Origin: Planctomycetaceae bacterium
GTDB taxonomy: Bacteria > Planctomycetota > Planctomycetia > Planctomycetales > Planctomycetaceae
DNA: 64,000 nt
Assembly (NCBI GenBank): GCA_024742875.1
Contig: JANSXP010000030.1
Span: 1-64,000 of the forward strand
Direction of reading: 5' to 3'
Shown here: piece after piece, positions 55,858-62,475 of the stretch
How positions within the stretch are numbered: the first letter of the stretch is position 1
How the letters are laid out: the number at the start of each line of letters is the position of its first letter
The notes under the pieces: model-generated
Databases searched by the model: none
The model's input: the letters and a program-made list of their open reading frames with translations, nothing else
What the model was told of the DNA's origin: nothing
Made by a program: the position numbers and the translations under genes

Positions 55858-57423
55858 TCATCGCACTTCCGTGTTATGTTCAATGAGGCGACGCAGTGTA
55901 CAGGGGAAGTCTGGCCGCAGCCTTCCGGTTCGCGATGAGTAAAGGCGTGACGATGACGCTTCTTCCTCTGTCACCACTCCGTCACCGTCCGTGTCCATCC
56001 GGAAGAATGACACAGCAGGCATGAGTGTTGCCGAGGAAACCTCCAGTTCCATATCGTGAAGCGAAAGTCGTCCCATCGCTTCAGTCAGGATATCGTCCGG
56101 TATCGTAATCGTTACCGGCTTATCCAGCGGCGTCCGCTCGAAGGCAAGTGTCTCATTCCGCAGGAAGCCCGAGCGTGTATAGCTGCGAACAGGTCCCCGA
56201 GTTAGCTGATTGAGCGCTCGGCGGAAAAAGGGGGCTGGGGCAAGTAGAGGGGCGGCCGTAGCGAAGTACTCGAGGTCTTTGGTTGGGGGACTGGTGGCAA
56301 GTTCGGCAGCTTCCAAAAAAGCGAACGAACTGACCTGAAAATCGTCGGTGCGAATGGCGATGTTGCCCTCCTGAAGATCTGTCCCGGAGTACACCGTGGC
56401 TACCGACGGCTCTGATGCCGGTGCCTGCCTCGCAGAGCTTGACAGGGCCTCGTCCATGTAGATGTCTCCTTCGCAGTATTGCAGGCTCTGGCCTGGCCGC
56501 GCCAGCACCACAACTCGGCGATGACTGCTCCACGAACGATCTGAGATCTGCGATGCTCTCCCTTCGCTCACCACGAAGGCAAGAACGATGTCTTTGCGGT
56601 CTGCAAAGAAGGCGGGCCACTGGACGTTAAGAGCGACGGGCTTCTTTTCTGGTGGTTCACCTGGGCAGATGACCGTCTCGAGGTGATCCATGCCGGGATA
56701 GACGTCGAGGCTGCCTCGACGCTGAGACTGCCATGGGCTGGTGATCGTGAACTGCACGGTGCCTGGTCGGACCAGCCCAAAATCGATTTCTCCGTTTTCG
56801 TCAGACTCGCGGTCCATCCGGGCATCAGTGGTTTCTGTGTGCAACTTGCCTTCAATTTCCACAGTGAAGCCAACAGCAGGGGCACCCCCGGACTCGTGCG
56901 ATTCCAGCTTGAATTTGAGGGGATTCCAAACTGCAGATCGTGAAGCCTCCTGCGGTTGCTGCGCCATCATCGTCAAACGTTCGATGACGAGCTGATTCTG
57001 TTTCTGGCTTTCCGCGAGCAGTTCACGGTTGGCGGCTTCAGAATTTGCAATGAGTTCTCGGGTGGCGTCTGCGGAATCGCGAAAATCGTGAGCCAGGCCG
57101 CGGACCATCCAGACAGCGCCGAGGCAGGCGGCCAGTGCCGCGATGGATGTGGCGAGAGTTACATTTCGAATCATCAGTCTGCTCCTCATTTCTGTAAACC
57201 AGAGCCGGCGAACAGTTGCCGCGGGATCTCCAAACTTCTCAATGACTCGCTGCTGTGCGTCGGTTTCGTCGCCGTTCGACAGCAGTTCCTTCTGCAGACT
57301 CTGCAGCAAATGATCCTGCACTTCGTCAATGATGTTGGCACGCAGGGACCCAGGTTCATCCGGGTCACGATGTGGCAACTGCGCAGCCAGCTGGTCACTG
57401 GAGAAAGACTCAGGTAAGTCCAT
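55858..57423 (-). CDS. HAAS-domain membrane protein with EF-hand-like loop
   Basis: A 521-residue protein. Residues 5-75 resemble the HAAS/permease-prefix domain (N-I-I-D-E-V-Q-D-H-L, then R-V-I-E-K-F-G-D-P-A-A). A transmembrane helix lies at about 85-110, a short coiled coil at 115-150. Then a large beta-rich part follows, and near residue 480 an EF-hand-like loop D-T-D-G-D-G-V-V-T-E-E-E. It begins 14 bases inside the padR gene, so the two are translated together. HAAS proteins usually accompany PadR regulators; the target is unknown. Confidence 0.78.
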   Translation of the reverse strand: MDLPESFSSDQLAAQLPHRDPDEPGSLRANIIDEVQDHLLQSLQKELLSNGDETDAQQRVIEKFGDPAATVRRLWFTEMRSRLMIRNVTLATSIAALAACLGAVWMVRGLAHDFRDSADATRELIANSEAANRELLAESQKQNQLVIERLTMMAQQPQEASRSAVWNPLKFKLESHESGGAPAVGFTVEIEGKLHTETTDARMDRESDENGEIDFGLVRPGTVQFTITSPWQSQRRGSLDVYPGMDHLETVICPGEPPEKKPVALNVQWPAFFADRKDIVLAFVVSEGRASQISDRSWSSHRRVVVLARPGQSLQYCEGDIYMDEALSSSARQAPASEPSVATVYSGTDLQEGNIAIRTDDFQVSSFAFLEAAELATSPPTKDLEYFATAAPLLAPAPFFRRALNQLTRGPVRSYTRSGFLRNETLAFERTPLDKPVTITIPDDILTEAMGRLSLHDMELEVSSATLMPAVSFFRMDTDGDGVVTEEEASSSRLYSSRTGRLRPDFPCTLRRLIEHNTEVR

Positions 57424-57802: not shown

Positions 57803-57961
57803 GGGTGAGCCGACCTTCACAGCAGTTTCCAGGAGTGATTCTTCAGGCAAATCGGCGTGAACTGTCGTGCGGACGAAGATCCCGTGTACGAGGTGAGTGT
57901 TTTGCCGGGTGGGAACGCGGCTGGTTATGCTGCATGCGTGGTAAAATGAATACACAGAACG

Positions 57962-58150
57962 TCAGTTGGAGTATTGACGGCGGGCTTCATTGATTTCCGG
58001 AACGGGAACGGTGTCCATGTGGTTGATGGTCCGAATCGGAGCAAGCCTTGGACGTCTGGCGAAGCCCTTTTGGGGCGTGTCCACGGTGAGGAAATCCCAG
58101 TGATGCGGTTGATCGGGTGACTGTTTGTAGAGGCAGGCATCCGTCTTGAA
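57962..58150 (-). pseudogene. 62-codon remnant of a lost gene
   Basis: An open stretch ends at TGA (57964-57962) and is cut off upstream by TAG (58153-58151), with no good start. Its translation looks like a real C-terminus (D-Q-P-H-H-W-D-F-L-T-V-D-T-P, later M-D-T-V-P-V-P-E-I-N-E-A-R-R), unlike the neighbouring frames. The family was not recognised. Confidence 0.4.
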
Positions 58151-58362
58151 CTAGTAAGGCCCAACTTCTAATTGGAATTGCATGTTCCGACTGGGAGCTC
58201 AGAATCGGCAGCAAAAGGCACGGTGCCTTCTTTGACCCTGTCACAACGCAAATTCGTGGAATCCTAAAAAGGACGTTTCCGCAGTTCGCTTCAGGACATA
58301 GCCAGTCAATGTGGAAGGCTGGCGTCATCTCAAGCCTAAACGAAGCCGCCGAGCCAAGCGGT

Positions 58363-58453
58363 GGCATAACAAAATGATGCAGCGGAGTTGTGGTCCGCCC
58401 GCAATCTGAAATCCACGTCAACGGCCACAACCCGCTGGTCATCGTTGTTAGCC
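58363..58453 (+). mobile_element. Integron attC-like recombination site
   Basis: A 91-base imperfect inverted repeat. The left arm starts GGCATAAC-AA, the right arm ends TT-GTTAGCC, giving the outer R-box pair with GTTAGCC close to GTTRRRY. An unpaired spacer follows, then a paired block CAGCGG with GTTGTGG, interrupted on the left by one extra A, as in the extrahelical base of attC L-boxes. A variable middle of about 31 bases separates the arms. No integrase or second attC was found. Confidence 0.65.
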
Positions 58454-59271: not shown

Positions 59272-59469
59272 ACGCGGGTGGGATGCTCGTTGCTTTTGGT
59301 CCAGTGTTACGGGCAACGCCGAAGGCGCGATGGGAGCCAGGACGTCGACTGACCGGGCTTTGCCATTGGTAGGGCAGCTAGCTTCCGGATTAGTCAGCCC
59401 CGTGATACGATCTTGCCGGCGCTTTGCACCAAGCTTGCAGAATCTTCTCCACCAAACCAGGGGCCAATT

Positions 59470-62400
59470 ATGCTGAGTCGGTTCGTTTCGTTCGTGGAAA
59501 TTTTTTCTCGCTTTCAGAATCGTTCGCAGCAGCGACGCCGCAGAACCAGCTTTGCTGCCCGGGCAGAAGCAACGGAACCGCGTGTAATGCTCACGACTTT
59601 CCTTGTGGATTCACAGGGAAGCGGAGACTTCCTGACCATTCAGGAAGCGGTAAACGCTGCAGGGCTGAACAGCGAGGACGATGTCATTCAGATCGCTCCG
59701 GGCACTTACTTCGAAAACATCACGATTGGTCAGCAGCAGGAAGAGCTTGAACTGATTGGCCTCTCAGGAATAGGCCCCAATGGTGAGTCCGGGGTCATCA
59801 TTGATGCTCAACTCGACGGCAATCATGCGCTGGCCATCACGCCCAATTTCGGTAGTCGAGTGCGTATTGAGAACCTCCTGGTCACGGGAGGGCTTGACGG
59901 AATTCGTGTGGCCGGTGCCGTCGCCCCGAATCCTCATCGTGTTGAAATCCACAACGTGACCTCGGTTGGCAATACCTACAGCGGACTTGCCGGAGTATAC
60001 GCCGGGGACATCAGTGTGACTGACAGTCACTTCTTCGAGAACGGACACAACGGCATCTACCTGTGGCAGAGCCTTTCACTGTCAGCAGACAATGTCGTTT
60101 CCGAGTTCAACATTCGAGACGGGATTTACGCCGGGCAGACCTCGACCATTCAGGTCCAGAATAGTCAGCTCAGCGGCAATGACAGCGAAGGACTGTTCAC
60201 ATCTGATGCCGCACGGGTTCAGGTGACCAACACGACGATTACCGATAACAAGGACAACGGGATCGACGTTCGAAGAGTGGGCTCCGTGACAGTGGCAGAC
60301 AGCGATGTGTTACGCAGCGGACCCCTTCCAGGGTTTGGAAATGTCGCCGGATTCTACTCCGGAGGAAGTTCGTCTGTGACGGTTACTGGTTCCACGTTTC
60401 ATGACAATTCGGCGATGGGAATCGGTATTTTCAACACCCTGGGGGCCGTCACATTCGAGGACTCTTCGGCGAACCGAAACGGCTACGCCGGACTAGTTGT
60501 CGGCAACGCTGGACTGGCGATAGCGGATCAGGCGGGCTCGTCGGCTGTCGTTTTGAATGCCACCACCGAGGGCAATGACTATCGAGGGATGAACTTTGAG
60601 TACGTCGGTAGCACGACGGTTTCGGAATCAACCATTGACGCGAACGGCACAACTCAAACATCCAGTTCCCTGGCTGGGGGTGGGATTCGATTTGTGGGAC
60701 CGGGCAGTCTTAATGTCAGCACTACGTCGATCACCAACAACACCGTTGTTGGCGAAGGCGGTGGTCTATTCGCGTTAGGCGATGCGGACCTTGGACCTGC
60801 GAATGTCACTTTGAATCAAGTTACTGTAGGCGGTAATACGGCCGAAGGCTGGGGAGGAGGCATCAGTCTGAACAACGCCTCTTTGACTGTTGAAAATTCT
60901 ACCATCTCCCGAAACTCCACTCAAAACGCTGGCGGAGGAATCTTCGCCCAGCTGTCGTCCCTTGACCTCGCGAATGTCACAGTTTCCGGCAACCAGGCGG
61001 TTGGGAACGGAGGTGGCTTGAGTACACGAACTGGGAGTAACCGCTTCGGCATCGTTAATTCAACGATCGTCAACAATACGGCGGGTGTGTCCACGACAGC
61101 CGTGAGTGCTCTCGGTGGTGGCATACATGCAGACGGTGGTGCCGTGCTGCTGTTGAATACTCTTGTCGCGGGCAACACGGCAGCGAATTCGAACACGGAC
61201 AGTTACGAGCCTTCCAATCTGTCCAGCCCCCTAAACTCCATTTTTTCACTGGGCAACAACCTTTCCGATGATGCAGCGGACGGAACCATCTTGTCTGCGG
61301 TGGGAGATATCGTTGGGCAGGATCCGTCTTTGGGCCCACTGCAGAACAACGGCGGCTTCACTGAGACTCACGCTCTGCTCGCAGGTAGTCCAGCTCTTGA
61401 TGCCGGAGCCCCGAATGCCGACAACCCGGCTCCCAATCTGATCCCACCGACCCACGATCAGCGAGGTTTCAACCGTGTCGGTCAGCTGGACATCGGAGCC
61501 TTTGAGAACCAGCCTCCGACGGCCGTCGAGGACTTTGCTTCGACGAATGAAGACACGCCCGTTGTGATCGATGTTCTGAGCAATGACATCGAACTGGACG
61601 GTGAAGTACTGACGATTGAACGCATCGTCAACGTAGAAAACGGTGAAGTGACTCAGAACGAAGACGGCACGGTCACTTTCACTCCAGCTGTCGACTTCTT
61701 TGGTGAAGCTTCTTTCTGGTACATCGCAGAGGATTCTGTCGGGAATCAGTCGCGGACGTCAGTTGTGATTGACGTCGTGCCAGTGAACGATGCACCCGTC
61801 ATCTCACCTCAGTCGTTTTCCATTGATGAAAATTCAGCAGCCGGAACTGTCGTAGGAGAAGTAACTGCAACCGACGTCGACAGCACAGAGCTGGTCTTCA
61901 GCATTGAGTCGGGCAACGAACTCGGAGGCTTTTCAATTTCCGATTCCGGGTTGCTGGAAGTTGCAGACTCCTCCGTGCTGGACTTCGAAGAGACATCTGT
62001 TTTCGAGCTGACCGTTGCTGTTACCGACGGTCAGGCCACGTCGACGGCAACTATCACCGTGAACCTGAATGACGTTGACGAAGTGCTGGCGGTGGAAATC
62101 GACATTGACCCGAATGACGCCAGCAACACGATCAATCTCCGGAAGGACAAGCGAGTCGACGTTGTTCTGTTTTCGTCCTTCGAATTCGATGCAACTCTTG
62201 TTGACATCGATTCCCTCCGCTTCGGAGCGACGGGGACCGAAGACAGTCTCAGTCGAAAAGGCCGTCAACAGTCGCCCAGAATTCGATTCGAAGACATCAA
62301 TGGTGACGGGCAACTGGACCTGATCGCAACATTTGACGTCGCGAACACTGGCTTGACCACAGACGATACTGAAGCGATCCTGACCGGTCGACTCCTCGAT

Positions 62401-62475
62401 GGAACAGATTTTATGGCTCGCCAAACTATCGTGGCGACCAACAGTGGTGGAGGACGAGGTAAGGGCCGAAAGTAG
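59470..62475 (+). CDS. Surface protein: beta-helix, cadherin-like repeats
   Basis: A 1001-residue exported adhesin-like protein. Its basic N-terminus (residues 20-40) carries the planctomycete-type E-P-R-V-M-L motif, which probably replaces a normal signal peptide. Residues 45-90 (Q-G-S-G-D-F-L-T-I-Q-E-A-V-N) open a right-handed parallel beta-helix up to about 600. A choice-of-anchor Q-like D-I-G-A-F-E closes it near 675. Tandem cadherin-like domains follow (P-V-V-I-D-V-L-S-N-D near 700; V-N-D-A-P-V-I near 775). The last 120 residues have calcium-type loops (D-I-N-G-D-G-Q-L-D). The end is basic and glycine-rich. ATG 59470 was chosen to place the EPR motif at residue 36. Confidence 0.88.
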   Translation: MLSRFVSFVEIFSRFQNRSQQRRRRTSFAARAEATEPRVMLTTFLVDSQGSGDFLTIQEAVNAAGLNSEDDVIQIAPGTYFENITIGQQQEELELIGLSGIGPNGESGVIIDAQLDGNHALAITPNFGSRVRIENLLVTGGLDGIRVAGAVAPNPHRVEIHNVTSVGNTYSGLAGVYAGDISVTDSHFFENGHNGIYLWQSLSLSADNVVSEFNIRDGIYAGQTSTIQVQNSQLSGNDSEGLFTSDAARVQVTNTTITDNKDNGIDVRRVGSVTVADSDVLRSGPLPGFGNVAGFYSGGSSSVTVTGSTFHDNSAMGIGIFNTLGAVTFEDSSANRNGYAGLVVGNAGLAIADQAGSSAVVLNATTEGNDYRGMNFEYVGSTTVSESTIDANGTTQTSSSLAGGGIRFVGPGSLNVSTTSITNNTVVGEGGGLFALGDADLGPANVTLNQVTVGGNTAEGWGGGISLNNASLTVENSTISRNSTQNAGGGIFAQLSSLDLANVTVSGNQAVGNGGGLSTRTGSNRFGIVNSTIVNNTAGVSTTAVSALGGGIHADGGAVLLLNTLVAGNTAANSNTDSYEPSNLSSPLNSIFSLGNNLSDDAADGTILSAVGDIVGQDPSLGPLQNNGGFTETHALLAGSPALDAGAPNADNPAPNLIPPTHDQRGFNRVGQLDIGAFENQPPTAVEDFASTNEDTPVVIDVLSNDIELDGEVLTIERIVNVENGEVTQNEDGTVTFTPAVDFFGEASFWYIAEDSVGNQSRTSVVIDVVPVNDAPVISPQSFSIDENSAAGTVVGEVTATDVDSTELVFSIESGNELGGFSISDSGLLEVADSSVLDFEETSVFELTVAVTDGQATSTATITVNLNDVDEVLAVEIDIDPNDASNTINLRKDKRVDVVLFSSFEFDATLVDIDSLRFGATGTEDSLSRKGRQQSPRIRFEDINGDGQLDLIATFDVANTGLTTDDTEAILTGRLLDGTDFMARQTIVATNSGGGRGKGRK

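Follow-up and report, generated by a model that had tools for sequence, protein, structure and literature searches.

The integron components that bear on this locus have all been described before, namely attC sites, single attCs without an integrase, the attCs of Planctomycetes and the IS1111 elements that target attC sites. Planctomycetes are one of the 11 taxa with a published attC model of their own (PMC8352920). Under the current default, at least two attC sites are needed for a CALIN, and a lone attC is a SALIN (PMC9024848, PMC12690207). Certain IS1111 elements, ISKpn4 and ISPst6 among them, have one end of attC sites as their target (PMC11187229).

The site described here lies in a window of 64,000 nucleotides (the whole stretch of DNA analysed), which is part of contig C149 of a planctomycete genome of 8.18 Mb in 168 contigs. 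It resembles the attCs of chromosomal integrons in its R'', L'', L' and R' boxes, its extrahelical base, its unpaired spacer, its variable end and the gene upstream, and the source genome has an integrase and arrays, whereas it differs in being isolated and in the altered bases after L' and before R'. It shares with a CALIN an attC without a neighbouring integrase but consists of one site only. With one attC and no integron integrase nearby, it falls under the definition of a SALIN.

A full attC layout had been claimed at 58363-58453 by a sequence-only reading, and the sequence (checked directly, with GGCATAAC beginning at 58363), the coordinates, the L boxes, the extra A, the GTTGTGG/CCACAAC stem and the 31-nt end are all as it described them (Table 1). 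Two details are redrawn. What was taken for an unpaired spacer of 9 nt is partly paired through ATGA and TCAT, and the unpaired centre is therefore only about 4-5 nt. The two boxes of the outer R pair are both present, with two mismatches between GCATAAC and GTTAGCC instead of perfect pairing. Relative to the consensus RYYYAAC/GTTRRRY, the AAC and GTT are exact and each box shows one departure; both boxes also occur in other sites of the same genome. In an array, the final six bases of an attC derive from the adjacent cassette or target, so that a mismatch between R'' and R' is expected at such a junction. Crossover would presumably take place between G58447 and T58448 of the R' box.

Table 1. 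Features of the attC locus and related transposase pieces (window positions unless a locus is named)
Feature	Position	Strand	Remarks
Whole attC recombination site	58364..58453	+	90 bases; cassette-strand orientation, gene on left, R' on right
R'' box GCATAAC	58364..58370	+	most frequent R'', 17/65 aligned sites
Outer L'' arm ATGA	58374..58377	+	pairs with TCAT 58439-58442
L'' box CAGCGG	58380..58385	+	layout scan; pairs with L' 58432-58437
Extrahelical A	58386..58386	+	T on the recombining bottom strand; A in 56/58 usable sites
Variable terminal structure, 31 nt	58394..58424	+	within 60-nt core identical to C127:2975-3064
L' box CCGCTG	58432..58437	+	layout scan
R' box GTTAGCC	58447..58453	+	R' of 4/65 sites
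3' part of cassette gene, 5' half missing	58150..58377	+	homologues in four other planctomycete genomes
IS110-family transposase remnant	58055..58150	-	32 codons of N-terminal part; 78% aa identity to C159 transposase, 91% nt
Terminal scrap of IS3-like element, 32 bp	59278..59309		100% identical to ends of five other contigs
Transposase pieces	L053:1-789; L054:7753-7854; L057:4070-4392; L025:1-408; window 58055-58150		

The outer helix of four base pairs shows covariation over 58 sites. Counted from the inside outwards, its positions are paired in 58, 52, 49 and 43 of these, whereas shuffling the partners leaves 40-55% paired. In the window it reads ATGA/TCAT and in the twin site on contig C127 AACA/TGTT, which are compensatory changes flanking an identical core of 60 nt. 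In the 65-site alignment a conserved TG stands opposite the single A, and A58386 is the counterpart of the conserved extrahelical T of attC sites (PMC2727003). Two window bases depart from the usual state, namely the base following L', which is G where 55 of 58 sites have A, and the base preceding R', which is T where 59 of 65 have C. A substitution at the latter position had a limited effect in a V. cholerae attC (PMC2727003).

The stretch 58364-58453 is a genuine attC of the source planctomycete's own integron, because of its score with a covariance model, the number of attC sites in the genome, and the integrase and array on C127 that holds a near copy. The model, R1, rests on 19 sites from the source genome and two relatives and is distinct from the published Planctomycetes attC model; the window site and its C127 twin were held out. 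Its alignment leaves out two rows that were misplaced by one base in the first alignment. A covariance-model check had been named by the sequence-only reading, and R1 gave a high score, 75 bits over the full length 1-90 (E 1.4e-18), which is its single match in the 64 kb. The opposite strand of the site reached 13.6 bits, and the orientation is therefore gene on the left and R' on the right. A scan for the layout (AAC, spacer of 4-12 nt, 6-nt L'', one extra base, 5-bp stem, complementary arm, similar spacer, GTT) matched a single place in the window, and 60 first-order-Markov sequences of 64 kb gave no match at all. In folding, both strands do better than every one of 200 dinucleotide shuffles (z -4.6 and -4.7). 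Conservation extends from the sequence to the structure, with a covariation of 0.493, against 0.161 when shuffled and at most 0.094 when slid, the inner helix having been chosen for complementarity and the outer L helix not. No Rfam family matched the site at gathering or relaxed thresholds.

The genome search for an integrase and further copies, likewise proposed beforehand, returned dozens of similar sites and an integron integrase on C127; neither of the two outcomes that the sequence-only reading had named as refuting it was thus seen. A BLAST-type search yielded a 91% identical copy at C127:2975-3064 and weaker copies on C110, C144 and C88, and the R1 scan about 44 attC sites at E<=1e-4 and 48 at E<=1. 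The C127 integrase (TIGR02249, 291 bits for a cut-off of 265) adjoins a cassette array that reads away from it and contains the 91% twin. Its nearest sequence relatives are planctomycete integrases, with 71% to Planctomycetaceae UBA11363. Pfam assignments among the cassette genes include a DNA methylase, a DMP19-like protein and a member of the glyoxalase/bleomycin-resistance superfamily. In one cassette of the home array (L021:2243-2980, on C127) the DNA methylase gene (PF01555) points against the direction of the array.

In an alignment with congeners for which only loci L026 and L028 were used, an insertion of about 80 bases separates the central part of the C127 integrase (L021:4622-5721) from the conserved C-terminal CHTFRHSFATHL box, and the reading frame differs on its two sides. 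The extra stretch holds the palindrome CCGGAACGAAGCGTTCCGG. The gene thus looks broken unless the assembly is wrong. Short of an assembly error, no integron integrase over the cut-off would be intact in this genome, and the window site could at present be moved only by an outside integrase; its mobility today is doubtful.

The site had also been described as isolated amid gene remnants with no integrase nearby, which holds. No integron integrase was found near it, the nearest tyrosine-recombinase fragment (C149:72640, 28.8 bits) being far below the cut-off. The nearest further attC candidate is degenerate and lies about 10 kb away, outside the window (C149:68604-68689, or L022:8605-8690; 20.2 bits). 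Located 4.6 kb past the window and directly after an open frame of 165 codons, this candidate probably marks another decayed cassette of contig C149.

Among congeners, the R1 scan found no attC site in G001 and G007, which speaks for the specificity of the model. In G004, which is a single contig, an integrase is found at 1.099 Mb and an array at 1.101-1.112 Mb. About nine additional attC sites, each more than 4 kb from any other, are spread over 8.9 Mb. Dispersed lone attCs are therefore a property of the genus rather than an effect of assembly. A tyrosine recombinase gene stands 0.3 kb from one of these lone attCs, at 2042600; two more copies of the gene, with equal scores, are present elsewhere in G004.

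Upstream of the window attC, 58171-58374 encodes the final 68 amino acids of a cassette gene whose TGA (58375-58377) falls inside the site, the arrangement being that of a gene cassette, with a gene ending just upstream of attC. In other planctomycetes its homologues (E 7.4e-16 to 5e-8; the three best at 45-47% identity) span about 160-190 codons as open frames. When aligned to a homologue of about 160 amino acids, the window gene begins at residue 84, exactly at 58150, which is also the end of the transposase remnant and makes a sharp junction between the two. No attC was found beside the homologues in other genomes. A cassette starting at the GTTATGC of 57924, with one frameshifted protein from MNTQNVSW, was considered and dropped, since 58055-58150 is an antisense remnant of an IS110-family transposase.

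The family of this transposase is assigned by PF01548 and PF02371, both above cut-off; NF033542 gives 132.7 bits for a cut-off of 140 on a copy that is cut by a contig end. All five transposase pieces of the genome stand beside an attC, four of them at contig ends and the fifth in the window, most copies being cut by the contig ends. The order antisense transposase, cassette gene, attC is common to the window, C159, the right end of C127 and C71, and at C88 the element lies with its opposite end directly against the R' end of an attC. This transposase was not found in seven congeners at E<=1e-20. Like ISKpn4 and ISPst6, the element belongs to the IS110 family; it shares with them a long non-coding region after the transposase and subterminal ends resembling inverted repeats, and it may likewise be specific for one end of attC sites. 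It differs as a planctomycete element whose best plasmid match is 42% identical and of which the window holds a remnant only. It resembles the attC-targeting IS1111 elements and is a putative member of that group.

On the other side, 0.8 kb downstream of the attC, stands a scrap which we take, on reading it by eye, to be of IS3 type. The same sequence ends contigs C106, C164, C28, C18 and C165, and C106 and C165 also have an attC match nearby. The attC and its gene tail lie within debris of mobile elements. Further on, 59413-62475 encodes a large protein that combines a right-handed beta-helix with cadherin-like/Ig domains; searches of seven congeners at E<=1e-40 returned no equivalent, and a TadE-like protein comes after it on the contig. 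In a search of seven congeners for an empty site, the proteins of the left flank (55861-57423) and right flank (59503-62472) had no counterpart. No relative sharing these flanks turned up, and so neither the original nor an empty form of the locus was seen; DNA similarity to relatives is limited to the PadR gene and attC-like matches.

With a probability that we put at about 0.7, the attC and the 3' half of the cassette gene are what is left of one or more cassettes of the genome's own chromosomal integron after disruption by an IS and deletion. The cassette would probably have belonged to a small array distant from the integrase. An attC-associated IS110-family element may have sat on its left boundary, and a later deletion would have left little of the IS and taken with it the upstream attC and the gene's 5' half. 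An array residue is favoured by the IS remnant, which occupies the place of the left cassette boundary, and by the TTAGCC that opens the right flank; cassettes elsewhere in the genome also start with this sequence, although the match could be due to chance. Within 10 kb of the site no other attC remains, so that the array is not directly visible, and the lack of attCs beside the gene's homologues in other genomes likewise counts against this reading. The anatomy of the site, its kinship with the home array and the gene and IS remnants are shown directly, whereas recombination and the history, for which no relative sharing the flanks was found, are inferred. The sequence-only reading had offered a CALIN or a cassette at a secondary site; the CALIN-like option, an array residue, is the one favoured here, not proven, and a single site is called a SALIN by current convention. 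The integrase could instead have put a single cassette straight into a non-attC genomic site, followed by decay in place, in an attG-type event of the sort reportedly treated by Loot et al. in 2024. Lone attCs are indeed widespread in the genus, the singletons of G004 show the pattern that genome-wide insertion would give, and a GTTATGC exists upstream at 57924-57930. However, the stretch from 57924 to 58055 is without recognisable cassette content and the right flank opens with a proper cassette start. The IS remnant at the expected left boundary comes from an element seen nowhere but at attC sites, which suggests that an attC once lay upstream. Such an insertion is thus held to be unlikely, and the decayed single-attC remnant is more likely the residue of a small array.

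A further alternative is a hairpin formed by chance, or another repeat such as a REP-like element, a terminator or a structured RNA. Nothing was found in its favour, apart from one weakly complementary palindrome elsewhere in the region, whereas the held-out E value, the empty random sequences, the lack of an Rfam family and the location of the site's relatives between genes beside an integron integrase make it exceedingly improbable. The site might also still be functional, as a docking point where an integrase adds or removes cassettes. By the mechanism proposed from established integron biology, its bottom strand would fold as a hairpin, bound by the integrase via the extrahelical bases and cut at the R' box, and the hairpin is intact, with conserved paired arms that include compensatory changes relative to the twin. 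Retained function is nevertheless quite improbable, given the insertion and frame change in the sole integrase over the cut-off, the two altered bases and the lack of an intact cassette gene attached. The site appears to be mostly inert now, since that sole integron-integrase frame appears disrupted. As for what broke the arrays, an attC-targeting and presumably RNA-guided IS110-family element could be a main agent, the lone attCs of this genome then being debris generated by the IS rather than secondary integrations, a generalisation that we regard as rather doubtful.

The probable residue of a cassette from the genome's own integron is an ordinary feature and a real one; what is new is another example of known integron debris, with an unusual neighbour. 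It adds a well-supported case for Planctomycetota, a phylum known for integrons but little studied, and the genome offers an example of dozens of dispersed attC sites together with an IS110-family element found only beside them. A genome-specific model can assign a lone attC confidently even where default tools hide single sites.
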